34,821 bases of DNA from a virus, in IMG/VR virus record IMGVR_UViG_3300033064_005668, positions 1 through 34,821 of that record. One strand, written 5' to 3'. Positions 7,546 through 31,201 of the stretch are shown here, piece after piece; position 1 is the stretch's first letter, and each line of letters opens with the position of its first letter. Below the pieces are notes generated by a model. The model did no database searches and was not told the DNA's origin. It was given only the letters and a program-made list of their open reading frames with translations. Position numbers and translations under genes: made by a program.

Positions 7546-9375
7546 ATGATAAAATTTTATTATGGACCAGAATTAGGTGTTTTAGAAGACTATCGAATAG
7601 TTCCAGCTCCATTAATTAGTATTAATACCCAGTTATCTTATGCTAATGATATTATTGTTGGATATTCATATACCATTTCTATTAATGGTACTATTAGTAC
7701 GTTAGATAAGAAATATATCGAAAGTCTAGAAAATGATTTAATATACCAACAAGAAATTCCGAATTCAGGTCTGATTACCACAGAAAATGAGTTGGTTATT
7801 ATTGACGAGGCAGAAACTATTTTATATCAAGACGACCCTAATGCTATAGATAGAATAAGAAATATCAGACCAATACTATATGGTATAGAAAATGTTCGTA
7901 AACTTTTTAGTCGTAATGGTAGTTCTTTAACAGTTCGAGATGATCAAAACAATAATCTTATTAGGGCAAGAGGGGGCACTCTTAGAAGTATAAGCTTTGA
8001 CAATGGTTCAAATCAGTGGTCGGCAACATGCCCATATTCCGTGGAAATTGAATTTAATGAACTTGAAATAAATGGAGAAACTCAAGAGTGTAATAGTGGT
8101 CTTGTTGATGATAGTTCTATTACATCTAATCTTATAGATATAAACCAACATAAGATAAAAACCTTCAGTGAAAATTGGAATTTTAATGCCGAAGATGATA
8201 TATATAATTTTGTTAGTACAAATAATTTAGATATTTTTAATCCAGAACTATCTATCTCATACTCATTGTCTGCTACTGGTAAAAATTATTATATCGAAGA
8301 TGAATTAAATCCCGCCTGGGTACAAGCAAAGAATTTTGTACAAGCTCGATTATACGACAGGGTTAACAGTATAGCTTCTGTTTTAACCATTTCTGGTTCT
8401 GATGCATGTGATGGAGTGCAAACCCTAGATAATTTACATGAAAATATTGAAAATAGCGGAATAATCTCCGGGCTACAAAATTCTTATAAAATATATAACG
8501 AAACACTAACTTGTAATACATCAGAGTCTGAGGGAAAGTTTGACATTCAATATAATGCGATTTTAAAAAAAGATTGCATATCTGGATATTGTGCTGGTAA
8601 TGTGAGACACACAGTCAATAAAAATATAAGCTCTACATTGAACGGAAATAAAAATTCTGTTTCTATAAGCATAGATGGAGAGATAGAGGGCTTGTGTGAA
8701 GGAGGTATTGTGCAGGACTTTGGGGCATTCTCTCTTCCAAGAACCGGAAATATTTTAAAACAAGGAACAACATCTACTAAATATACTAATGCTAATATTT
8801 TTTTAAGTACTATTTTAAATATGGATCTAGACGATCTGTCGAATAGTTTCAAAACAGATTTGGATATAACACCAGAAGCGCTTGAACTAGTATCATCGTC
8901 TGGGTCTTGTGGCGGGATTTCAATAAAACCTGCTACTTTTAATATTACGAAAAACTTTATGACAGGATCAATATCCTATAATGCAGAATACTCCTCTGAT
9001 AGGTCATGCGCAACAGAAACTAACGGAAATTCTATATATAAAACCAGCATAAGTGTTGAGGAACCAGTACCTATAATATCAGAATTTAGTGTTCCAAACG
9101 GAAACTATATAATACAAGACATAGGAACAGTAACAGCAAGAAAAATCTCCGTAACAGCAGAAGGAAAAGAGAATAGAGCTTTTTGTGATCTGGATGACAT
9201 TAATTTATATTTAGAAGATATACTACAACAAGATATGGAAATATTATTTCCATTTTTAGAACTTCCTAATGAAGAAGATTTTATATTGACAAACAAGGGT
9301 TTCTCATATAATATAATAGAAGGATCATATACTGTTAATTTAGCCTATATTTGTGTCGAAGGATGTGATTTATGA
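7546..9375 (+). CDS. Tail/baseplate structural protein, paralogue 2
   Basis: A 609-residue protein whose whole length parallels the preceding gene. Shared blocks include RIVPAPL near the N-terminus, YAND.I.GY, an RN-G-L-V-D/RD strand followed by SISF and an IEFNELE-like strand. SYKIYNE..CNTSESEG lies near residue 313 and VEEPVPI.SEF.VP near 503. It differs by an insertion of about 40 residues after the first 50 residues, and by a longer C-terminal region. The gap after the previous gene is only 14 bases and shows no convincing Shine-Dalgarno sequence, so translation may depend on reinitiation. The pair probably arose by tandem duplication and may form a hetero-oligomeric ring or successive tail-tip layers (inference). 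Confidence 0.65.
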   Translation: MIKFYYGPELGVLEDYRIVPAPLISINTQLSYANDIIVGYSYTISINGTISTLDKKYIESLENDLIYQQEIPNSGLITTENELVIIDEAETILYQDDPNAIDRIRNIRPILYGIENVRKLFSRNGSSLTVRDDQNNNLIRARGGTLRSISFDNGSNQWSATCPYSVEIEFNELEINGETQECNSGLVDDSSITSNLIDINQHKIKTFSENWNFNAEDDIYNFVSTNNLDIFNPELSISYSLSATGKNYYIEDELNPAWVQAKNFVQARLYDRVNSIASVLTISGSDACDGVQTLDNLHENIENSGIISGLQNSYKIYNETLTCNTSESEGKFDIQYNAILKKDCISGYCAGNVRHTVNKNISSTLNGNKNSVSISIDGEIEGLCEGGIVQDFGAFSLPRTGNILKQGTTSTKYTNANIFLSTILNMDLDDLSNSFKTDLDITPEALELVSSSGSCGGISIKPATFNITKNFMTGSISYNAEYSSDRSCATETNGNSIYKTSISVEEPVPIISEFSVPNGNYIIQDIGTVTARKISVTAEGKENRAFCDLDDINLYLEDILQQDMEILFPFLELPNEEDFILTNKGFSYNIIEGSYTVNLAYICVEGCDL

Positions 9376-10994
9376 GTACTCAATGCCAAGGTCCAATTTT
9401 AATTGAGCCTATTAAATTTTTAGGCGCTAGCGTTATATCTTTTAATACTAATTTAGGTATTGGTTCAGCTAGTGAAAGTACGTTAACGGTTGATCTAATA
9501 GAGGATTGCGAAGCCGATCCACCAGATTTATTTTTGCCAGCTAGCACAGGAAATAACAAAGTAGAGGTAGGAGAGCCAGCATATTTTGATACTACCATAT
9601 ATGGGGGAGGATTTTCTTTTGGTGGAGTTCTAACTTCTTGGAGCAAAACACAGGGTTCTTCGGGCAGAACATTTAATGTAACCGTATCCGATCCTAGGCA
9701 ATTATTACAGAATGTGGGTGTTGTTGTTGATTCTTATGTAGGTCCACCATCATATGGTATTAACTATATAAATGTTTATGCTCATTATGAGCAAGAAGTA
9801 TTGTCTGGAAATTGTAATGTATTTGGTAGTTCATTGGGCAACGAAAGAGGAATGCCATATCAAAAAGTTATACAAGCACTGCAAAGTATGAATTCAACTA
9901 TTTATTCACCAACCGGCTATCCCTATACCGTTAACTGGGGCTCTTTTCCCACAGGATTACCAGAATACTATAGGGTTACAGGTCCACAAACAGTATCTCA
10001 ATTATTACAAGATGTTTGTGACGTATTAGGATTTTCTTTTTTTGTAAGCTTAGCTCCAGGTAATATAATTACTGTGGGTTTAATTGATCTTAAAAGTGTT
10101 CCTCAAAGTTTTAGTACTATTATCGACGAGTTTGATGGTGTAGCGACCGAATTAAGCTTCGGAGAAGAACTAAGAAACGAGGTTACAAAAGCTATAATTT
10201 TTGGTGAACAACAACATTATTTAACTTATGTTGATGAATTTCAGTTCTATTTTGGCGAAGATATGATAAATGGAGAACCCGTGGCCGTTGTTCCTTTTAA
10301 AATAGATAGAGATAATAATACATTTTGGATAAATAAAAAAATTAATAATCTTAATGGAACACTAGAAAAACCATTTCCTAATGACGGCCCCTATGAAATA
10401 AGCGAACTGGATATTAGAGCAGCAATGGGCTCGCTTGAGCTATGGAAAAGTAGAGTATTTGATCCAGATATAGTTGGAAATTTTAATGCTGCTATAAGAG
10501 CTAATTACCCAGAAGGTGTGGATCAGTTGAAACAAAGAATAAATGATATTAAACCAAACAGAGCTATTAATGACATAGCTCTTAATCCAAACGCTGCAAA
10601 AGTGGATCTATTAAATGAAATAAGGTCTAATGATTTAAAAAAAATACATTCTTTTATAGCAGATTTGGGAAATACTTATTATGGCAAACAATTTATAACA
10701 CCACTAAAAGAAACAATTTGTTATTATCAAGGAGAAAATTTTCAAGAAAAAATATTCTCTAGTGTTCCTACAAATGCTGGTGGGTGGATAGATGGAGATA
10801 TTCCAATACTAGGATTAGCAGATCCAGATTTAGGATTATACAGATCTGATGACAACAGATTGACTTCGTTTGGGGTTTTTACTCTGGATGGAGATAATGA
10901 CGATAAGTCTGGCGACGAAGTAGATCCAAAGTATGAAAACACATCACCGCCAGACGATTACAGCGACAGCGAATATATTCCTGGTGGGCCTTAA
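9372..10994 (+). CDS. Baseplate/tail hub-like protein
   Basis: A 540-residue protein starting on an ATG that overlaps the previous stop. The N-terminal part opens with a strand reading FLGASVISFNTNLG. Near residues 95-120 it carries FNVTVSDPRQLLQNVGVVV, and near 206 VSQLLQDVCDVLGFSFFV. A domain around a (S/T)xxxLLxxhxxxxG helix followed by a beta strand is typical of gpD/gp27-like tail hub proteins, which form the ring at the tube tip that carries the spike. The C-terminus is acidic and Asp/Ser/Pro-rich, probably disordered. Assignment as hub-like rests on these motifs and on the position between tail-tip proteins. A generic tail protein is the alternative. Confidence 0.55.
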   Translation: MSTQCQGPILIEPIKFLGASVISFNTNLGIGSASESTLTVDLIEDCEADPPDLFLPASTGNNKVEVGEPAYFDTTIYGGGFSFGGVLTSWSKTQGSSGRTFNVTVSDPRQLLQNVGVVVDSYVGPPSYGINYINVYAHYEQEVLSGNCNVFGSSLGNERGMPYQKVIQALQSMNSTIYSPTGYPYTVNWGSFPTGLPEYYRVTGPQTVSQLLQDVCDVLGFSFFVSLAPGNIITVGLIDLKSVPQSFSTIIDEFDGVATELSFGEELRNEVTKAIIFGEQQHYLTYVDEFQFYFGEDMINGEPVAVVPFKIDRDNNTFWINKKINNLNGTLEKPFPNDGPYEISELDIRAAMGSLELWKSRVFDPDIVGNFNAAIRANYPEGVDQLKQRINDIKPNRAINDIALNPNAAKVDLLNEIRSNDLKKIHSFIADLGNTYYGKQFITPLKETICYYQGENFQEKIFSSVPTNAGGWIDGDIPILGLADPDLGLYRSDDNRLTSFGVFTLDGDNDDKSGDEVDPKYENTSPPDDYSDSEYIPGGP

Positions 10995-18030: not shown

Positions 18031-18822
18031 TCACTCGTCTCCTATTTTTAGTATTTTATTTTGTGATAATTTACCAGCTCGTATATCCTGCAACAATTTT
18101 GATAGTTTTTGAAAAACGATTAGTCCTCGTGTTTTAGAAAAGTCTTTACTTTGTTTAATTCTTATTAAGTGTAATCCCTTACCAATAATTAATCCGGTTT
18201 TTTTATCATCATATTTATTATTTCTTTTCAGGGCGTCGTCACCCCATACTGGTTCGAAATGAGATGGTCCATCAATCTCAATAGCTACATTTATTTTAGG
18301 CACAAAAAGATCGATCTGCAACCTGGTATTTAGTATGCTTTGTTCCTTATGAAATTCTACCGCCCAGCCATCTGATAATAACTTATTTAACAAGAATTTT
18401 TCTAATTTCGATCCTGTTTTTCCGGCTTCCCTAACAGCAGCATTTGCTTGTTTAAGAATATCTTGTTTTTCTATGTCGCTTTTATTGTCCCAGCTTGCTT
18501 TAGCTCTAAGCCTACGTTTTTCTATCTCGTTATTATCTATATTTTCCCAAGCATGTAATACCGATAAACCAATTTTTTCTTTAGTTTCCAAAGATCTCTT
18601 TGTTCCTTTAGTAGGGTGCTTAATCCTACCGCTACTTAAGGCGCTTTTTTGCGCTTCGCTTTTGTCTCTTATTTTTATATTTAGTCTCATTGCGTCTCTA
18701 CGAATTTTGTTAGCATAGGTACCAATGTTTTTAGCAATATCTCCAAAACTTTTTTTATCTATTTCGTATTCTTTTTTTAAAAAGGAACCTTTATCTTTAT
18801 CGTTCATATTCTTATATATCAT
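18031..18822 (-). CDS. NUMOD3/HTH plus Vsr-like (PD-(D/E)XK) nuclease
   Basis: A 263-residue protein. Residues 18-60 look like a helix-turn-helix (SFGDIAKNIGTYANKIRRDA). Around 66-86 is a NUMOD3-like segment (KHPTKGTKRSLETKEKIGLS), a DNA-binding motif of homing endonucleases. From about 137 there is a nuclease domain: SKLEKFL (E141), then IDLFVP (D171), then IEIDGPSH (E182, D184). Later charged residues include KRNNKYDDKK. This is the order found in Vsr/DUF559-type restriction-fold nucleases. The ATG overlaps the previous stop (ATGA). It may be a free-standing homing endonuclease or a phage junction-resolving/repair nuclease. The tight operon placement slightly favours a resident function. 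Confidence 0.6.
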   Translation of the reverse strand: MIYKNMNDKDKGSFLKKEYEIDKKSFGDIAKNIGTYANKIRRDAMRLNIKIRDKSEAQKSALSSGRIKHPTKGTKRSLETKEKIGLSVLHAWENIDNNEIEKRRLRAKASWDNKSDIEKQDILKQANAAVREAGKTGSKLEKFLLNKLLSDGWAVEFHKEQSILNTRLQIDLFVPKINVAIEIDGPSHFEPVWGDDALKRNNKYDDKKTGLIIGKGLHLIRIKQSKDFSKTRGLIVFQKLSKLLQDIRAGKLSQNKILKIGDE

Positions 18823-22214: not shown

Positions 22215-22583
22215 TTAGAAAGCGACAGTTTCTGTTGCAGATTCCCTATTCTTTTTTGCCCTAACTATTGGTGCAAAATTATTTACTCTAACCTTAAGAG
22301 TGCTATGCTTAACACCATCTTTTTCCCAGCTGTCGTTCCTTAGACTTCCTTCGATCATAACAAGATCCCCTTTCTTCAAGGAGGACGACACGGCTTCTGC
22401 TCCACTATCCCATGCCTCGCACTGAATAAACGAAGTCGCTTTATCCTGTGTGCCATCGGCTTTTATAAACTCTCTGGATGTAGCAACAGTAAAGTTAACA
22501 ACAGATGTTTGTTTACTTCCGATGTTAACTGTTCTTAGTTCTGGATCTCTAGCCAGATTACCTCTCAACACGACAATATTCAT
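22215..22583 (-). CDS. ssb: Single-stranded DNA-binding protein
   Basis: A 122-residue OB-fold SSB. The start MNIVVLRGNLARDPELR, then TVATSREF and a W-x-S/G-type strand (IQCEAWDSGAEAVS), match bacterial/phage SSB. KGDLVMIEGSLR.DSW is the usual L45 loop and following strand. A longer frame reaches back to 22634, but the ATG at 22583 has AAGGAG seven bases upstream and gives the canonical N-terminus, so it is preferred. The C-terminus ends ATETVAF. It keeps the final Phe but lacks the acidic DDDIPF-type tail of bacterial SSB, so interaction with host SSB partners may be altered. It follows the polymerase C-half but has its own promoter. Confidence 0.92.
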   Translation of the reverse strand: MNIVVLRGNLARDPELRTVNIGSKQTSVVNFTVATSREFIKADGTQDKATSFIQCEAWDSGAEAVSSSLKKGDLVMIEGSLRNDSWEKDGVKHSTLKVRVNNFAPIVRAKKNRESATETVAF

Positions 22584-22590
22584 AAAGGAA

Positions 22591-22596
22591 CTCCTT
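22591..22596 (-). promoter_or_regulatory. Ribosome binding site that fixes the ssb start
   Basis: AAGGAG on the minus strand lies seven bases before the ATG at 22583 and decides in favour of this start over the longer open frame. Confidence 0.75.
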
Positions 22597-22622
22597 CTTA
22601 AAAGTAAAATGCCAACTACAAC

Positions 22623-22650
22623 ATTATAAACCATGCTGACGGTGTGTCAA
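22623..22650 (-). promoter_or_regulatory. Consensus sigma-70 promoter for ssb
   Basis: On the minus strand TTGACA (22650-22645), a 16-base spacer and TATAAT (22628-22623) match the bacterial consensus at all twelve positions. The -35 overlaps the TGA stop of the polymerase C-half. The predicted start of transcription near 22616 leaves a leader of about 33 bases with the AAGGAG site. Confidence 0.75.
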
Positions 22651-24254
22651 GTACGGGCCATGTATGCTTTTTCTACAATAAAACTATCTTTGCTTTTAGA
22701 TTTGCTGCCACTAACAATAATAACGTTACCGCTAAATAATATTGACCTATATTTTCTATAAACTTCTGGAAAGAATATAACAGAATCAACACACCCTGTG
22801 CCATCGCAAAGAGTAACAAAGCTCATTTCTTCACCAGGATTTTTACCTTTTTTAGTTTTTGTCACATTTATAGAATCCACCTCGCCACCCATTATCAGTT
22901 TTTCTGTTAATATAGAAGTTTTAAAATTTTTGCAAGTTATGTTGGTCATACTAATGTCGTACATATCAACTTTTGAACAAGTGATTGGGCATCCCAAACC
23001 AGCATCCTCAACATCCGCTATCCATTCTGGACTATCTTGTAGACTAAACGGAGGATTATTGAGAGTGTTAATACAATCAGATATTATTTTTTTTCTATTC
23101 TTATTAATCTTGGGTTGATTTTGTAAAACTAATAGAGCTTCCTGAAGTGGAATATCAACATTTATATAGGCTATCTCTTTTTTGGTTAAATTGCTGATTA
23201 TATCATATTCAAATAGCATAGATGTTCTGGTTTTATTTAAATATGACAACGCACCACATTCTATCATAGTCCTGGCTGCTGTGGAATTAATATTGCACAA
23301 AATATTTAACAACACTGCTAGCCAGGACGATTCTGCCAAAGGTTTTTTTAGGTCGCTAACTATTTTAGTTAATTTATCAAAAACAGATTTTCCAACACCT
23401 TTGATATCTGTTAGTCCAAAATAAATATCATTATCTTTTAATACAAAAAGCTTATTCATAATCCTTAGATCGGGAGTTCGTATCGTGATATCCATCTCGT
23501 TAGCATTTTGTACTAATGCCTTGATTTCTTCTTGTGGATTAATTTTATCTCCAGCAAATCTGAGATAAGATGCAAAAAATATCTTTGGAAAGTGTGCTTT
23601 AGCATATGCCGACAAATAAGCATTAATAGCATAGCTAACGCTGTGAGACTTATTAAATGAATATCTTTGACTTTTTTCTATCCATCCGAAAATTTGTTCA
23701 GCCTCGTTTTCTGTAACAACTTTTGTTTTGGATACTCCTTCTAGGAATTTGGTTTTAACTTTTGCCATTTCTTCTGGTTTCTTTTTGCCGATAGCTTTAC
23801 GTAACATGTCTGCTTCTTGCAAATTAAAGCCAGCAATATTTTTGGCTATTTCCATAGCCTGTTCTTGGTATATCATTTCCCCATATGTGGTTTTGAGAAT
23901 CGGCTCCAGTGCGGGATGAAAGTAATCCAGTGACTCTTCGCCATTCTTTTTGTCAATATAGTGATTAGTAACACTTTTTCCATTGCGAATTGCTTCCAAT
24001 GTTCCTGGTCTAAGGATCGCTATCAAAGCAGATAATTGTTCGATATTCTCTGGTTTTAGTTTTTTGGCTATAGATCTACCAAGTCTAGATTCCAGTTGAA
24101 ATATCCCCTTGGTATTACCGTCGCTAATCAAATCCCATGTCCTAGAACATTCTAAATTAATATGCTCTATGGTAGGATCGAAATCGATGCTTTTGTTGGC
24201 TTCGTTCAATAAGTCAAAGGAGCATCCACAACTATACGCAAATTTTTGTTTCAT
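22647..24254 (-). CDS. dnaE: DNA polymerase III alpha subunit, C-terminal half (DnaE-C)
   Basis: A 535-residue protein colinear with the fingers and C-terminal part of bacterial DnaE. GIFQLES is at 50-56, LRPGTLEA near 81, YQEQAMEIA near 129 and ADMLRKAIGKKKPEEM at 148-163. FNKSHSVSYA is at 200-209 and a helix-hairpin-helix GLTDIKGVG at 280-288. An OB-fold-like region occupies about 450-530. It lacks the tau-binding C-terminal domain of E. coli DnaE. Residues 1-20 (KFAYSCGCSF) form an extra N-terminal extension with two cysteines, and a third cysteine is at 36. All three catalytic aspartates are in the separate N-half gene, so this piece cannot polymerise alone. Its ATG overlaps the stop of the exonuclease gene. 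Confidence 0.9.
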   Translation of the reverse strand: MKQKFAYSCGCSFDLLNEANKSIDFDPTIEHINLECSRTWDLISDGNTKGIFQLESRLGRSIAKKLKPENIEQLSALIAILRPGTLEAIRNGKSVTNHYIDKKNGEESLDYFHPALEPILKTTYGEMIYQEQAMEIAKNIAGFNLQEADMLRKAIGKKKPEEMAKVKTKFLEGVSKTKVVTENEAEQIFGWIEKSQRYSFNKSHSVSYAINAYLSAYAKAHFPKIFFASYLRFAGDKINPQEEIKALVQNANEMDITIRTPDLRIMNKLFVLKDNDIYFGLTDIKGVGKSVFDKLTKIVSDLKKPLAESSWLAVLLNILCNINSTAARTMIECGALSYLNKTRTSMLFEYDIISNLTKKEIAYINVDIPLQEALLVLQNQPKINKNRKKIISDCINTLNNPPFSLQDSPEWIADVEDAGLGCPITCSKVDMYDISMTNITCKNFKTSILTEKLIMGGEVDSINVTKTKKGKNPGEEMSFVTLCDGTGCVDSVIFFPEVYRKYRSILFSGNVIIVSGSKSKSKDSFIVEKAYMART

Positions 24255-24937
24255 CTAAATGAATCTTTAAACTTTACCTTTGATGCCAAACTTCTGTGTA
24301 ATCTCATAAACCTAATTAAGATATCAGCAGTGTCTCTTACGTCTTTGATAGCATCGTGAGCACCAGTTTTATCTATACCAAAATATTCTCGTAAATTATC
24401 CATACTATAGCTTTTTAACTCGGCGTTATGTTCAAACCAATAAAATACCAAATTCATTACATCTATTACGTCCCTAGGATAAAATATATCTGTAGTGTTT
24501 TCTTTGTTAATATTTCCATACTTGATGCTTAGTCTATCTATAATTTTTAAATCGAACCTATTGATATTATATCCAGAGGCAATCGGAGCACTAAATTGGC
24601 TTTTCCTAGATGATCTGGAATGGTATTTTTGTAAATACGCAATAAATAAATTCCATGATTGTTGTTGTTTTGGATAGTTTTTCCATTCACTTAACACATC
24701 GTCTTTTGAACATCCTTTTACCTTGGAATGAAAATCAAGAATATCCGTTGTGTAAGTATAGTCATCATTATTTTCCAATACTTCTGGCTTAAAGTTTATA
24801 TTAAATTCAGAGTTTGGAATAATTTCTAAATTTATCGGATCTACCATCACAGCAGCGATTTGCACTGGGCTACAAATCTTAGGGTCGCAACCATCAGTTT
24901 CAAAATCAAATATGCAAATTTTATTATAATTAATCAT
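24251..24937 (-). CDS. DEDDh 3'-5' exonuclease, epsilon-like proofreading subunit
   Basis: A 228-residue exonuclease of the DnaQ/epsilon family. Exo I is FDFETDG (D11, E13), Exo II is GYNINRFDLKIID (D129) and Exo III is GAHDAIKD with H194 and D199 in H-x4-D spacing. All four metal-binding acids and the general-base histidine are present, so it should remove mispaired 3' ends. There is an insertion of about 40 residues between Exo I and Exo II. It lies between the two halves of the polymerase gene, overlaps the 61-residue gene by eight bases and the C-half by four. Stoichiometric assembly with the polymerase is therefore likely. No clamp-binding motif was identified with confidence. Confidence 0.88.
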   Translation of the reverse strand: MINYNKICIFDFETDGCDPKICSPVQIAAVMVDPINLEIIPNSEFNINFKPEVLENNDDYTYTTDILDFHSKVKGCSKDDVLSEWKNYPKQQQSWNLFIAYLQKYHSRSSRKSQFSAPIASGYNINRFDLKIIDRLSIKYGNINKENTTDIFYPRDVIDVMNLVFYWFEHNAELKSYSMDNLREYFGIDKTGAHDAIKDVRDTADILIRFMRLHRSLASKVKFKDSFR

Positions 24938-25115
24938 TAACTTGTACTACTGTTGTTAGAGGCTTAATCTGAATAACTTCTGACGGATCGGCTGTGTTTG
25001 CGGCGTTTAGTATTTTACAGCAGCTAACTTTTTTGTCTACTATTTTCTTATATTGTTTACCATTTAGAGTAAACACATCATCAGTTTTTAATTCTTGAAA
25101 CTTTATATCTCTCAT
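24930..25115 (-). CDS. Small unknown protein between the polymerase halves
   Basis: A 61-residue protein, with AAGGAG in the 3' end of the polymerase N-half six bases before its ATG. It reads as a small beta-rich domain (VFTLNGKQYKKI, then VSCCKILNAAN, then VIQIKPLTTVVQV). The adjacent Cys-Cys at about 32-33 is the only notable feature. I recall similar short proteins in other phages but no function for them. Position between DnaE-N and the exonuclease makes an adaptor or bridging role worth testing. Nothing in the sequence proves it. Confidence 0.6.
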   Translation of the reverse strand: MRDIKFQELKTDDVFTLNGKQYKKIVDKKVSCCKILNAANTADPSEVIQIKPLTTVVQVND

Positions 25116-25116
25116 T

Positions 25117-26985
25117 TCAAACTCCTTGTTGAAGTAAAAATCTTATAGTCATAATTTTATCTAACATAGCAACGCCTAAAATATCAAACTTAATAATACC
25201 TATATTTTCTAAGTCTTGCATTTCCATACCAGCAATTAGCTGTTCGTTTTTGCTGTCGTAAATCATAGGACAAATTTCATTAAGAGGTTCTGAACTAATA
25301 GCTATACCAGCAGCGTGTTTAGATTGGTTTGATTTTGTTCCCTCTAGACGAATAGCTTGTTCGAATCTTTTTGCTAATGGACCCTGTAGTGTGTCGTTTT
25401 CATCAATATAGCACCATTCTTTCAGTTTGTCAGCGTGATTTTCTAATGCCCACCTAATAATTGATGATTCACCAGTTTCCTCTTTCATTTCCTGAAGTTC
25501 GTCAGCAATTTTAGCTTCGTCTGGGATGTTTTTCGTAATTTGGTTCATTTCATCAAAGCTAATATTGCCATATACCCTTAATACATCTTTAAGAGCGCCT
25601 CGTCCCTTGATAGTATTAAAAGTTATCATTTGAGATACTTTATCGTGGCCATATTTATTCTTAATATATTCTATAATAGCTTCTCGCTTATCGATTGGAA
25701 CATCAACATCAATATCGGGCATACTTATGTGATTCGTACTATTTCTACCAGCATTATAAAATCTATCAAATAATAATCCATACTTAATTGGGTCAATACT
25801 AGTAATACCAATAAGATATGATACTAGACATCCGGCGGCCGATCCGCGTCCTGGTCCTGGTAACCAACTGTTTTTTCTCACATAATCGACGATATCTTGC
25901 ACAATAAGAAAATAACTACTTAATCCTGCTCCTTGTAAAACTTCTAACTCATACTTGATACGATCAACATAAATTTGTTGACCATCTTTTGATATAATGT
26001 CTGCTATTTTATCTCGCCAGCCATTTCGGCAAAGTTGTCGTAGGTACTCGTCTGGATTCTGATTATCTGGACATTCAAACGGAGGAAGCTTCGGCTTACT
26101 TAATATGTCGTAATCCTCTATTAAATTTGCTACATATATTGTATTTTTGATTTCATCTTCTGTGTGAAGAGACTGAATTTCTTCTTGAGATGGAATATGA
26201 TAATTGTCAGATGTAAAAAAACATCCTAGAGGAACTTCTTCGTCATTACTAATTTTACGACTAATTTCCTGGAAAGTAGTTTTTAGATTATTACACAAAA
26301 GAATTCTTTGATCGGCAGCATCCGCTTTTCTGCAATAATGAGCGTCTGGGGTACATATAACATATGTGCTTGTTTGTTCTCCAATGTGGCGAATAGCGTC
26401 TGTTAAAATTTTCTGTACGGTCAAATTTTCCACATCCATTAACTGAGACTCTAAAAAAACACAATTATTAAATATTGATTTTAAGTATGTAACATGTTGT
26501 ATGCCCAGCTCTAGCCAATCTGATTTTAGATCATAGTTATCCAAAATAGTATCTGCTAATGTTGAACCCAAATGGCCAGTGATAGCAACTAGATTTCCGC
26601 TGTTTAGTTTCTGAAGAGTTTTTAGGTCTAGTCTTGGCTTATGATAATAATGCTCTGGCTTATTGGATTCTGAAATTATTCTAATTAAATCTTTCCACCC
26701 TTTATAGTTTTTTGCCAAAATAATAAAATGAGACAGATTTCTATTTTCTTTGTCTTTTATTTTTGGATCGCCATTGCAGATATATAGTTCACATCCCAGA
26801 ATTGGTTTTATCCCCGCTTTTTTCATAGCAGTATAAAACTTGATAGACCCGGCTATATTACCATGATCTGTTAATGCACACGCATTTGCTCCTATCTCTT
26901 TACATCTATCTGCTATTTGTTCTGGCTTACTTAACCCGTCCAATAACGAAAAATGACTGTGAACGTGAAGAGGTATGTAGTTCAT
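25117..26985 (-). CDS. dnaE: DNA polymerase III alpha subunit, N-terminal half (PHP and palm)
   Basis: A 622-residue protein. Residues 1-230 form a PHP domain with HVHSHFS (H7, H9), D16, TDHGN (D40, H41), GCELY (E66), H86, ITGHLGS (H138) and TPDAHY (D214, H216). From about 340 the polymerase palm follows: GPGRGSAAGCLV at 377-388, MPDIDVDV with catalytic D426 and D428, and IIKFDILG with the third catalytic aspartate D601 (equivalents of E. coli D401, D403 and D555). The protein stops 21 residues later, where a full DnaE would enter the fingers. With the C-half the total is 1157 residues, close to E. coli DnaE. The ATG overlaps the stop of the RecB-like nuclease gene. Confidence 0.92.
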   Translation of the reverse strand: MNYIPLHVHSHFSLLDGLSKPEQIADRCKEIGANACALTDHGNIAGSIKFYTAMKKAGIKPILGCELYICNGDPKIKDKENRNLSHFIILAKNYKGWKDLIRIISESNKPEHYYHKPRLDLKTLQKLNSGNLVAITGHLGSTLADTILDNYDLKSDWLELGIQHVTYLKSIFNNCVFLESQLMDVENLTVQKILTDAIRHIGEQTSTYVICTPDAHYCRKADAADQRILLCNNLKTTFQEISRKISNDEEVPLGCFFTSDNYHIPSQEEIQSLHTEDEIKNTIYVANLIEDYDILSKPKLPPFECPDNQNPDEYLRQLCRNGWRDKIADIISKDGQQIYVDRIKYELEVLQGAGLSSYFLIVQDIVDYVRKNSWLPGPGRGSAAGCLVSYLIGITSIDPIKYGLLFDRFYNAGRNSTNHISMPDIDVDVPIDKREAIIEYIKNKYGHDKVSQMITFNTIKGRGALKDVLRVYGNISFDEMNQITKNIPDEAKIADELQEMKEETGESSIIRWALENHADKLKEWCYIDENDTLQGPLAKRFEQAIRLEGTKSNQSKHAAGIAISSEPLNEICPMIYDSKNEQLIAGMEMQDLENIGIIKFDILGVAMLDKIMTIRFLLQQGV

Positions 26986-28028
26986 TCTGTGCCGCCCGGT
27001 GCTTTGTATTTATCAACAGTATATCCTGGCGTTGTGTACTCGTCAACCACGGAGTCCATACCTTTTAATTCGGTGTTGTGCTTAATTTGTTCGCATATGG
27101 TCATATAACTACCCTTGCTACACGTTTGATTATCTCTGTATTCTAAAATCGGCAATATAGACGGATGATTTTCAAAAGTCTTTTTTCCATAATGGCATAA
27201 TTTAGTACATTTCCAAGTTCTAGTAAGTTTTGGTCTTTTGCACTTTTTGATAGTTTCAAATTTTTTTCTTATCATTTCTTCTGTTTTAGACAAATCTTCT
27301 TTAGTAAATAATACGCTAAAAGGACCCCCATCATTAATAAAATTAATAGTTACAATAACATATTCATATTGAGGATACATCTTACTAACAGCATAATGAT
27401 ATATTCTTAATTGAGCATCGTCATATAATTTTTCGATAGTTTTTTCTTTCCCTGTTGCCCAATCTAGTCTTCGTCCAGTTTTTAAATCAACTATCTCTAA
27501 AGTTTCACTATTAGCTTTAGTTATTAAGTCTATGGTGCCCTTTATGCCTAACTTACCCTTTAAAGTTTTTCCATCAATTTTGTACTCATAATCTGCCCAA
27601 GGCTTATCTATAATAATATCAAAGTGTCCTTCGCTACTGACCATTTCTCTGTTCCTTGGGTCAAACATGCCACTATGGCTGCTGATCATTGTATTTACGT
27701 TCTGGTGGCAGGTTTTTAAATCTTTGTCGGTCCATACATGATGTTCAAATAGCGTCTTGTAATGCTCAAAAACCCTAGTTGTAATATCTTCTAAATTATA
27801 ATTATCAACATCTATTGAACCTAGAATATCATCAACATAAAATTGTTCATTATTTTGAATAGATAATTTAATACCGGCTAATATTTCCATAACTTTGTGA
27901 GTATTAGTTCCTAAATCGGCCTTTTTTCCAGAAGGACTTTTTATTCCTAGAACATAGTCGAGAAAAAACTGTTGTTCACACATAGAGTGACAATTATATG
28001 AAGAGCTTCTAAGATAGGTAATAATCAT
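26982..28028 (-). CDS. RecB/Cas4-like PD-(D/E)XK nuclease
   Basis: A 348-residue nuclease. SYNCHSMCEQQFFLDY near the N-terminus and GTNTHKVME (H44) begin the fold. GIKGTIDLI (D167) and EIVDLKTGR (D181, K183) supply the D...(E/D)xK active site, and a Q-containing helix follows (DDAQLRIYHYA). Cysteines at 274, 278, 303 and 312, with others at 13 and 17, resemble the Fe-S-anchored C-terminus of Cas4/AddB-type nucleases. The exact ligand set is uncertain. It probably processes DNA ends for recombination or replication. It overlaps the dNMP kinase stop and the polymerase N-half start by four bases each. Confidence 0.8.
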   Translation of the reverse strand: MIITYLRSSSYNCHSMCEQQFFLDYVLGIKSPSGKKADLGTNTHKVMEILAGIKLSIQNNEQFYVDDILGSIDVDNYNLEDITTRVFEHYKTLFEHHVWTDKDLKTCHQNVNTMISSHSGMFDPRNREMVSSEGHFDIIIDKPWADYEYKIDGKTLKGKLGIKGTIDLITKANSETLEIVDLKTGRRLDWATGKEKTIEKLYDDAQLRIYHYAVSKMYPQYEYVIVTINFINDGGPFSVLFTKEDLSKTEEMIRKKFETIKKCKRPKLTRTWKCTKLCHYGKKTFENHPSILPILEYRDNQTCSKGSYMTICEQIKHNTELKGMDSVVDEYTTPGYTVDKYKAPGGTE

Positions 28029-28627
28029 TGGTTATATTCTGCTACTTTCTTACAAATGTCAACAAATTTACCAAGGTAAAGATTGATTTGTTCATTTTGT
28101 TCAGTAATGGAGAGATCGTTATTATCTACTATGTAGTCAAAATTATTTTGATCATACTGTTCAGCATCCAGGGCCGTTTCGCTAGCGTGAAAAGAATTAT
28201 ATGGATTCCTAGTAAGTTTTATCACTAGTCCCCCAGCCTTTTTTATTGCGTCCACCTCATTAGGAAATCTACAGTCCGCTATAATTGCTATACTTAGTTT
28301 ATCTCTTAAGATTTTTCTAATAGTAGCATCGGACCACACATTGTTTTGCATCTTACGGAACATATCTGTTCCGACTATTTGTAAAACTTCTCTAGCGGTA
28401 AGTTGATGATTATCCGAATAGCAATTTACTAGTTCGTTCTTATCTTCGTCTGAACCATAACATTGTCTGTATTCTAGTCCCAATATATCTATGCATAAAC
28501 TTTTAAGAGGATCTGCGAAATTGTATATTTTAGAATCTCCGTATTTCCAAAATAAATTTGCTACAAATTCTGCGGATGTTGTTTTACCAGACTGTTTACG
28601 ACCAGCAAATGCTATTATTTTTGTCAT
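28025..28627 (-). CDS. Deoxynucleoside monophosphate kinase
   Basis: A 200-residue P-loop kinase with GRKQSGKT at residues 9-16. It continues with FADPLK, LTAREVLQIVGTDMFR, and AIIADCRFPNEVDAIKKAGG. These are the marks of the phage T4 gp1-type dNMP kinase family. Such enzymes phosphorylate dNMPs to dNDPs and in T4 also handle the hydroxymethylated nucleotide. No enzyme making a modified base is in this window. It lies between primase and the RecB-like nuclease with ATGA overlaps on both sides, so it belongs to the replication operon. Confidence 0.85.
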   Translation of the reverse strand: MTKIIAFAGRKQSGKTTSAEFVANLFWKYGDSKIYNFADPLKSLCIDILGLEYRQCYGSDEDKNELVNCYSDNHQLTAREVLQIVGTDMFRKMQNNVWSDATIRKILRDKLSIAIIADCRFPNEVDAIKKAGGLVIKLTRNPYNSFHASETALDAEQYDQNNFDYIVDNNDLSITEQNEQINLYLGKFVDICKKVAEYNQ

Positions 28628-29781
28628 ACTACACTTTGAATGTATTCTTTGATCTCTGTATTAATTTCGTCGCCATTCATTTCACCAACATCGTTTTTAC
28701 TAATTTGTGGCATAAAAATTCTGTATGTATTTTGGCATTTATTTTTGATTTGTTCAGCAGCTTTTTTACCAGCTTCATCATTATCTGTGAGAACTATCAG
28801 CGTCATCGCCCCCGAAGAATCTAACAATATCTTTTGTCTGTCGCTAAGGGATGAACCAAATATGGCTACGCTGTTATGAATTTCATTTTCCTCTAAACGC
28901 CAAACATTGCCAGGACTCTCAACAAGAATAGCTACTCCAGTATCTAGTATATGATCTTTGGCAAACCAGAAATTGTAAAGATAATTTTGACTCTTAAGTT
29001 CTGTACTATGTTTCCATTTTGGATAAAACCAGCTTTTGTCTGGTGTTGGACATTCGTGGTTGGGATCGTGATAAGACGAACAAGTAGAGCATTTTTCAAA
29101 AATACTTCTTCCAGTGCATCCTACCATATATTCATAATTATTGTCGTAAATTGGTACAACAGCGCGATTACACATTGGCTTATTTGGATTATCACATAAT
29201 CCAACATCGTATTTAGTTAATGCTTCTGATGAGTAATTTCTATCTAAATAGTATCTTGATGGTATTTTTATAGCCTTGACTATTTGAGATCTAGTTACTT
29301 TACTTTCAGAGTTTTCTATTTTAGCATTTATATAATTAACGGTGTTGGTAAATTCTTTTTTGTCTTTTTCTGATTTAGAAATCTTAATACTGGATAGGTC
29401 TTTATTTAAGAAGGCTTGAATATAATCTAGAGCTTCATTAAAAGAACAACTAGCATCCCCAGGTTCTCTCCACTCATACTTTTGATATGATATAATTCCT
29501 CTCACAAAACCTATGATCGACGATTTGAATTCCTGTTCGCACCCGTGTGTTCTACACTTCCAATTTCCTCTGTACGAGTCACCATCTGGATAAATATTGA
29601 GTGCTGACGGATTATCCCCTCCGTGTATCGGACAACTCATTGAGATCATTTTGGAATTAGTCTTGTGCTCAAGACCAAATCCATCTAAAAGACTCTCAAT
29701 ATTATCGCACAGATCATCACACAAAATTTTAAGTTTGGCTTGATCAGGAGAACGGTATTTCTGGTTCATTGTTTTTATCAA
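28624..29781 (-). CDS. DnaG-type DNA primase with TOPRIM domain
   Basis: A 385-residue primase. A zinc-binding module has C50-x2-H53 and C76/C81 (SCPIHGG ... WKCRTHGC), similar to the CHC2 finger. The TOPRIM core shows VESPG and TDNDEAG (acidic residues near 333-335). A second Cys/His-rich insertion (CSTCSSYHDPNHEC) occurs near the middle. Two starts are possible. A TTG at 29781 has GAAGGA seven bases upstream; the ATG at 29769 has no well-spaced site. The TTG is preferred but not proven. It overlaps the helicase gene by 38 bases. It makes primers for the DnaE-type polymerase. Confidence 0.85.
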   Translation of the reverse strand: MIKTMNQKYRSPDQAKLKILCDDLCDNIESLLDGFGLEHKTNSKMISMSCPIHGGDNPSALNIYPDGDSYRGNWKCRTHGCEQEFKSSIIGFVRGIISYQKYEWREPGDASCSFNEALDYIQAFLNKDLSSIKISKSEKDKKEFTNTVNYINAKIENSESKVTRSQIVKAIKIPSRYYLDRNYSSEALTKYDVGLCDNPNKPMCNRAVVPIYDNNYEYMVGCTGRSIFEKCSTCSSYHDPNHECPTPDKSWFYPKWKHSTELKSQNYLYNFWFAKDHILDTGVAILVESPGNVWRLEENEIHNSVAIFGSSLSDRQKILLDSSGAMTLIVLTDNDEAGKKAAEQIKNKCQNTYRIFMPQISKNDVGEMNGDEINTEIKEYIQSVV

Positions 29782-31201
29782 CTATAAATCCTTCATCTGT
29801 ATCCTTGTTATTGTTAACAATCTCTAGTCTAGTTTTACCCTCTGTAATTTTTGCACACCAGCCCTTCATATGACAATTGATATAATCGTTATCGTCCAAA
29901 CCTCCACCGTGGCGGCTGACTAGCGGCAATAGCTTACGATTACCATTACTTGGTCCGTCTTCTGCTATTTCCTCGTCGCTCTTTCTTTTAAATATGCTAA
30001 AATTACTACATAGCCAAATGATTCTATCGGATCCGCTTGCTGTGTCGGTGCTTTCTTTTGTAATTCCGTCTCTATTTAGTTGTATAAAAGCAACAATTGG
30101 GATTTGATACCTAACAGCAAAATTGTGTAAACTTGTCATCATGAAACCCAATAACTGATACTCTTTCATATCCTGGCTTAATCCTTGAGTATCCATAAGC
30201 TTAAGATAGTCATAAAATATAACACATCTCTTTGCTGTGCCGTCATCATTAAGACCAACTTCTTTTAATACCCATCTTCTCATAATTGCTAACTGTTCTT
30301 CAAATGGCTTACCAGCAATACTCTTGTAGAAAAGTTTAGTAGATTTGAGTTCTTGTGCCGCTTTTGTAATTTTCATTTTAGTATCTGCTGATTCTGCGAA
30401 TTTTCCAGTTTCAATACTATTTATTTCTACTTCGGTCATCATAGCCAAAACTCTATTAATGTGGTCTACAGTATTCATTTCCGTATCCATATTAAGTACT
30501 GGTATATTATGTTTGTTCGCTATGTTAAAACCAATATTGTCTGATAAAAGAGTCTTACCTATCTTGGGTCTGGCTGCTATCACATTGACCGTTCCTTTTC
30601 TTAAGCCTCCCCCGATAGCTTGGTCGTATATAGGAAATCCTGTAGGTATGCCAATTTGATCAACCCTATTTTCTTGCAAGCTTTGAATATACCCGTCAAT
30701 ATCTTTACCGATAGCCACAGGATTATTGTCTGTGTCGTTTAGTAAAGAAGAGAAATTAAAGACGGCATCTTCCGCAATACCCAAAATAGATGTGATGGGT
30801 TCATTTCCATTAATTTCTAATAGCTTGTCCCCAGCGTTTTCTAGTTGTTTGCGTAATAGTCTTGTTATTTCTAACTTGCGTATTTTTGCAGCAAATTTTC
30901 TTACATTTTCTAAACTAACAGGAAAATCTAGTATCGCCCTAAGATGTTGAGCCTCTTCCTTCTTAGCAAAGATATTACCAATGCCCAAATCTTGAGCAGC
31001 AGAATATATGGATGCTATGTCGATTGATGGCTTTTGGGCACCGTCAAATAAAGATTTTAAACACCTATAAATTATACTATTACTATCAATAGTAAATGAT
31101 GATTCTTGAATAATGTCAGCAACATCCAGATAAGCATCTTCGCCATATCTGCAAATACCAGAAAGAACGGCTCTTTCTGAAGCGGGGTCACAGAGTATCA
31201 T
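29744..31201 (-). CDS. dnaB: DnaB-type replicative helicase
   Basis: A 485-residue helicase with a DnaB N-terminal domain (residues 1-110). A linker helix and RecA-fold motor follow. The Walker A is AARPKIGKT at 209-217, then the NMDTEM segment with the catalytic glutamate, Walker B CVIFYDYLKLMD and FIQLNR. The motor begins with GIPTGFPIYDQAIGGGL, the standard DnaB GxxTGxxxLD motif. Length is in the normal range. The acidic C-terminus may contact partners. It starts seven bases after the zinc-ribbon gene and overlaps the primase gene. It unwinds the fork and should recruit primase. Confidence 0.9.
   Translation of the reverse strand: MILCDPASERAVLSGICRYGEDAYLDVADIIQESSFTIDSNSIIYRCLKSLFDGAQKPSIDIASIYSAAQDLGIGNIFAKKEEAQHLRAILDFPVSLENVRKFAAKIRKLEITRLLRKQLENAGDKLLEINGNEPITSILGIAEDAVFNFSSLLNDTDNNPVAIGKDIDGYIQSLQENRVDQIGIPTGFPIYDQAIGGGLRKGTVNVIAARPKIGKTLLSDNIGFNIANKHNIPVLNMDTEMNTVDHINRVLAMMTEVEINSIETGKFAESADTKMKITKAAQELKSTKLFYKSIAGKPFEEQLAIMRRWVLKEVGLNDDGTAKRCVIFYDYLKLMDTQGLSQDMKEYQLLGFMMTSLHNFAVRYQIPIVAFIQLNRDGITKESTDTASGSDRIIWLCSNFSIFKRKSDEEIAEDGPSNGNRKLLPLVSRHGGGLDDNDYINCHMKGWCAKITEGKTRLEIVNNNKDTDEGFIVDKNNEPEIPFS

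Follow-up and report, generated by a model that had tools for sequence, protein, structure and literature searches.

The stretch of DNA analyzed here (the window) is a 34.8 kb fragment of an uncultured phage, in which a DnaE-type C-family DNA polymerase is split over two genes, designated polN and polC. These genes belong to an operon that encodes a helicase, a primase, a dNMP kinase, a PD-(D/E)XK nuclease, the split DnaE, an exonuclease and an SSB, an order common to its relatives. The features are listed below in the direction of the genes.

29744-31201, minus strand: DnaB-like helicase, upstream replication gene (profile matches and synteny)
28624-29781, minus strand: Toprim primase, upstream replication gene (profile matches and synteny)
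28025-28627, minus strand: dNMP kinase, upstream replication gene (profile matches and synteny)
26982-28028, minus strand: PD-(D/E)XK (Cas4-like) nuclease, upstream neighbour of polN (PF12705)
25117-26985, minus strand: polN, N-terminal half of DnaE with PHP and palm/thumb, 622 aa (PF02811, PF07733, PHROG 405)
25708-25710, 25702-25704 and 25183-25185, minus strand: polN codons for the catalytic residues D426, D428 and D601, respectively
24930-25115, minus strand: 61-aa ORF between polN and exo, specific to the window's clade (clade A; no Pfam or PHROG match)
24251-24937, minus strand: exo, epsilon-like DEDDh 3'-5' exonuclease, 228 aa (Pfam RNase_T, PHROG 192)
22647-24254, minus strand: polC, C-terminal half of DnaE with fingers, HhH and OB, 535 aa (PF17657, PF14579, PF01336)
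22215-22634, minus strand: SSB, directly 3' of polC (PF00436)

The PD-(D/E)XK gene, whose position 5' of polN is kept in nearly all relatives, overlaps polN by 4 nt (26982-26985). A gap of 1 nt (25116) separates polN from the 61-aa gene, which in turn overlaps exo by 8 nt (24930-24937), and exo and polC share a 4-nt ATGA (24251-24254) in which polC's own ATG overlaps the exo stop codon. An earlier reading of this DNA from its letters (the sequence-only reading) had described a DnaE split into two genes around its exonuclease, and the coordinates, lengths and overlaps were all as claimed. Its assignment of the PHP domain and three catalytic aspartates to the N-half, and of the fingers, HhH and OB to the C-half, agrees with Pfam: polN matched PHP and DNA_pol3_alpha, polC matched DNA_pol3_finger, HHH_6 and OB, and exo matched RNase_T. 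The DnaE-type domain set (PHP, palm, fingers, HhH and OB) is complete only across both proteins together. On the PHROG 405 (DNA polymerase) model, polN occupies positions 42-611 and polC positions 605-1070 of 1190, with almost no overlap. The polN stop codon lies 21 residues past D601, which places the break between palm and fingers, as had been proposed; the cyanobacterial split-intein site, from which that reading had distinguished the break, is indeed a different one, with FNKSHS uninterrupted in polC (residues 200-205).

The summed length of the halves, 1157 aa, had been taken as that of a whole DnaE. The figure is correct, but its agreement with a whole DnaE is coincidental, with insertions in the N-half and a domain absent from the C-half. 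When aligned to E. coli alpha, polC matched residues 585-848 and then, weakly, 994-1055 of 1160, and the last 120 positions of the PHROG 405 model (1190) were left unmatched by polC. Because the matches end at approximately 1055/1160 of E. coli alpha and 1070/1190 of PHROG 405, we concluded that the C-terminal (tau-binding, DnaE1) domain is absent.

We modelled each half singly with AlphaFold2, using an alignment of relatives as input, and obtained mean pLDDT values of 88.5 for polN and 86.0 for polC. The polN model terminates in a helix (606-619) right behind the strand bearing D601. In Foldseek comparisons, both models matched the corresponding parts of the Taq, E. coli and M. tuberculosis DnaE; the best E-value for polN was 4e-45, and polC aligned with 4iqj, 7pu7 and 5fku over about 530 columns.

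Scans of viral contigs with each half yielded 160 loci, none of which contained a fused ORF, and the reuse of ever more distant matches as queries led to further clades. After identical copies were removed, both halves were present in 125 loci from many metagenomes, likewise with none fused, and the exonuclease gene lay between the halves in 124 of them. In the exception, a deep relative (L213), a 110-aa gene, an RNase HII gene and an 80-aa gene replace the exonuclease. The order of the halves and the break point are kept in six deep virus clades: all 115 intact N-halves end 17-30 residues past the third aspartate, mostly 21 or 22, and D426, D428 and D601 are invariant among 116 full-length N-halves. 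Beyond the exonuclease itself, the distance between the halves ranges from only a few bases up to 3.6 kb filled with additional genes. Continuous relatives were also sought in a genome collection, where only five contigs were retrieved, each of which came from a metagenome-assembled genome and had the split gene; no cultivated isolate of the split-DnaE clade is known. None of the relatives retrieved carries a continuous dnaE free of the inserted genes, and the suggestion of an architecture fixed within a virus clade was borne out. As judged from these sequences, the two-piece DnaE is well supported as the fixed form of this virus group.

A frameshift, an assembly error or a decaying pseudogene could produce a similar picture in a metagenomic fragment such as the window, and a few relatives do look damaged inside the N-half; in L031 (3205-4933), for example, the apparent damage lies between residues 421 and 456 and the catalytic DxD is gone, possibly through a deletion or an assembly fault. 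However, such an origin is extremely improbable, given that the order recurs in 125 non-identical loci, that complete genes separate the halves and that purifying selection is strong. For close pairs, in which dS was measurable, dN/dS was approximately 0.01-0.07 in both halves; several more distant pairs were saturated in dS and were given no ratio. The exonuclease was also under strong purifying selection in close pairs, and selection on the 61-aa gene was weaker.

The 61-aa gene was found between polN and exo in most members of clade A. Clade B has an unrelated 72-aa ORF instead, and no small gene was recognized in clades C, D and E. The proposed order of N-half, small protein, exonuclease and C-half therefore recurs with respect to the exonuclease, but the 61-aa gene is confined to one clade, and we rejected the 61-aa protein as a general essential bridge on the same grounds. 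Nor would a strict N-exo-C particle hold for all clades, in that the small gene is replaced in other clades and the exonuclease too in L213. Other inserts were also observed. In L138, a gene (8071-10662) for an 863-aa protein with RCC1 repeats separates the 61-aa gene from the exonuclease; an HMM search (E 0.01) gave no support for a 61-aa-like domain perceived by eye within this protein. L037 and L038 carry ThyX-like and PF07596 (pilin-like, typical of Planctomycetota) genes between exo and polC. The PF07596 gene is a possible hint of the host for these two relatives only, and a planctomycete host for the whole clade was dismissed because the gene occurs in just these two.

A split intein at the break might join two polypeptides encoded in this way once they have been translated, in the style of cyanobacterial DnaE. 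Split inteins do appear in this gene: the N-halves of L013, L149 and L151 are cut at GPGRG^SAAG by apparent intein halves (N-intein CFLPDSRV..., C-intein ...IGVHN^S), for which the Pfam Intein_splicing matches fall under the curated cut-off. At the palm/fingers break, however, intein blocks were absent. In each clade the N-half ends about 21 residues past the third aspartate and the C-half opens directly with fingers-side sequence; the window halves gave no intein/Hint match. We accordingly regard rejoining by an intein at this position as having next to no likelihood. Apparent split inteins at GPGRG^SAAG were also seen in the N-halves of L152, L154, L019 and L023. In these loci, as in L013 (2050-5126), L149 and L151, a free-standing endonuclease-like gene of about 0.8 kb lies between the intein halves, so that the polymerase there comes from three genes.

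Splicing at the RNA level would be another route, with a self-splicing intron holding the middle genes and the exons joined in the mRNA. Introns are frequent in phage polymerase genes, and a LAGLIDADG-type gene is inserted elsewhere in this gene, just before the catalytic DxD, in L077 (3353-4282) and L204 (3230-4081), with a Pfam match for L077. Nevertheless, such an intron is very unlikely: no Rfam match to a group I or II intron was obtained in the window or in five relatives, polC has an ATG of its own overlapping the exo stop, and the intervening genes are clade-specific, and the spacing is variable.

The sequence-only reading had further proposed that the break is perhaps the scar of a mobile element. 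Such an origin is possible but unproven. The most obvious elements of the relatives occupy other parts of the gene or flank a gene that is split already, and no homing endonuclease was found within the break in the window. Beside the break, such genes were seen in five relatives only: a possible HNH gene lies between polN and the 61-aa gene in L007 and L008 (identified by eye, Pfam nuclease match absent), and L183, L191 and L206 contain an EndoVII-type (recombination endonuclease VII) gene between exo and polC, with a Pfam match for L206. The mobile elements of the relatives occur sporadically and seem to postdate the shared split, and they show how a break could arise. Outside the break, a 263-aa ORF in the window (18031-18822, minus strand) gave PHROG matches to HNH/homing endonucleases, and the PD-(D/E)XK (Cas4-like) gene of L204 (2-1945) has an apparent intein of its own.

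We constructed a maximum-likelihood tree of the concatenated halves together with single-chain polymerases. Clades A-E formed one group (100/100), and with L213 joining them as clade F all six split clades grouped together (96/93); several terminal branches are long, including that of L213, the placement of which is therefore less sure. The cultivated Rossellomorea phage phiT1 (gp20-gp19-gp18, PV767480) is cut at the same place between palm and fingers, but differs in that a 49-aa gene, and no exonuclease, lies between its halves. Because phiT1 grouped with single-chain Bacillus phage polymerases (82/65), its split is probably independent of that of the clade, as far as the sequences indicate. 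One shared origin is disfavoured by the tree, and an AU test of a single origin was marginal (P = 0.059), with no clear rejection. An apparently independent break at the same joint suggests that the palm-fingers joint tolerates cutting.

We compared this arrangement with known systems. Single-chain DnaE proteins (E. coli, T. aquaticus, M. tuberculosis and phage) have the same domain order and Asp triad and include the closest solved folds, whereas here there are two polypeptides cut between palm and fingers, with no C-terminal domain and with an exonuclease gene inside. DnaE is likewise encoded by two genes, with no recognized intein, in Microbacterium phages of cluster EF (Karate gp55/56), where this state has already been noted (PMC7302621), and in Mycobacterium phage Aikoy (gp83/85). 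Karate and Aikoy are cut at the PHP/polymerase boundary, which leaves the catalytic core whole, whereas here the core itself is cut. The cut at the PHP boundary was also found in Bacillus phage vB_BpsS-140 and in contig L214; in the former (L215 2885-6492), the PHP part and the polymerase part form a two-ORF dnaE in an unannotated stretch of the record. The B-family polymerase gp43A/gp43B of the T4-related Aeromonas phages 25 and 44RR is also a replicative phage polymerase in two pieces, and the halves from phage 25 co-purify as an active polymerase (PMC2988022). However, that split is sporadic and associated with a homing endonuclease or an untranslated insert, whereas the present one concerns the C family and is fixed across deep clades. 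Cyanobacterial DnaE, also encoded by two genes, is trans-spliced at FNKSHS, a site intact here, and the break described here is intein-free. In PolC, a DEDDh exonuclease is similarly nested in a C-family polymerase, but as a domain inserted in the PHP of one chain, whereas here the exonuclease has a gene of its own, placed between those for palm and fingers. Within a partial search of earlier reports, the present case differs from known split polymerases in its family and in the site of its cut, which lies within the catalytic core, and also in that a deep virus group has it as its standard form.

Another question is whether the halves act as the replicative polymerase at all. They could instead work separately or in repair while a host polymerase copies the genome, since phages are able to use host replisomes; consistent with this, no match to the beta clamp family PF00712 was found in 12 related contigs of 140-238 kb. 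Each of these contigs contained exactly one PF07733 match, namely the split DnaE, and none matched PolA or PolB. The redundant full-length polymerase that would have undermined the sequence-only reading was thus not found in these 12 long relatives, which may be incomplete. Moreover, the halves are kept together, their operon also encodes helicase, primase, SSB and exonuclease, and a single half lacks either the catalytic residues or the fingers. We therefore consider separate or repair functions unlikely.

The exonuclease matches PF00929 and PHROG 192 ('DNA polymerase exonuclease subunit') and contains the Exo I-III motifs FDFET, NRFD and HDA. Its C-terminus carries a conserved FKx(S/A)F motif (residues 223-227), with F223 present in 123/123 and F227 in 119/123 aligned sequences. 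The tail of E. coli epsilon docks to the polymerase; by its position and conservation, the FKx(S/A)F tail may dock in the same manner. Clades A, B, D and F have for the most part kept their PHP metal ligands, clade C has lost them and clade E has lost most of them; a few clade A sequences deviate at the first two ligands, where the chosen reading-frame starts are possibly wrong. Clades C and E retain the exonuclease, and L213, which is without the exonuclease, has intact ligands. This distribution, together with the exonuclease holding its place in 124 of 125 loci whereas the small genes and inserts vary, led us to a tentative reading in which coupled translation would assemble polymerase and proofreader into a three-part core, comparable to a PolC in separate pieces. 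This would explain the position of exo. The gene order of the distant phage contig L214 (5373-9560), in which exonuclease-like and 73-aa genes lie between PHP and polymerase at a different cut, also points in this direction. We regard this reading as possible but rather doubtful.

Taken together, these results make it highly probable that polN and polC are two non-covalently docked subunits of one replicative C-family polymerase, with exo probably its proofreading subunit. With no intein or known intron at the break, the halves would have to associate non-covalently, and since deeply diverged clades have retained the arrangement, they almost certainly reassemble into a working polymerase, for which both would be needed. 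The N subunit would supply the PHP scaffold and the palm/thumb with every catalytic carboxylate, and the C subunit the fingers, on the side of the incoming nucleotide, and the HhH and OB DNA-binding parts. Made from adjacent cistrons that are probably translationally coupled, the two would dock across the palm-fingers joint, and the exonuclease would probably join them, perhaps through its C-terminal FKx(S/A)F.

If this is the case, a widespread uncultured group of viruses would have, as its standard enzyme, a natural two-piece replicative C-family polymerase that is cut within its core and rejoined by neither protein nor RNA splicing. Such a polymerase would provide split sites that need no design, along with many natural variants, for probing palm/fingers cooperation, and would allow tests in which halves are swapped between phages or the coupling of a proofreading subunit to the core is followed.
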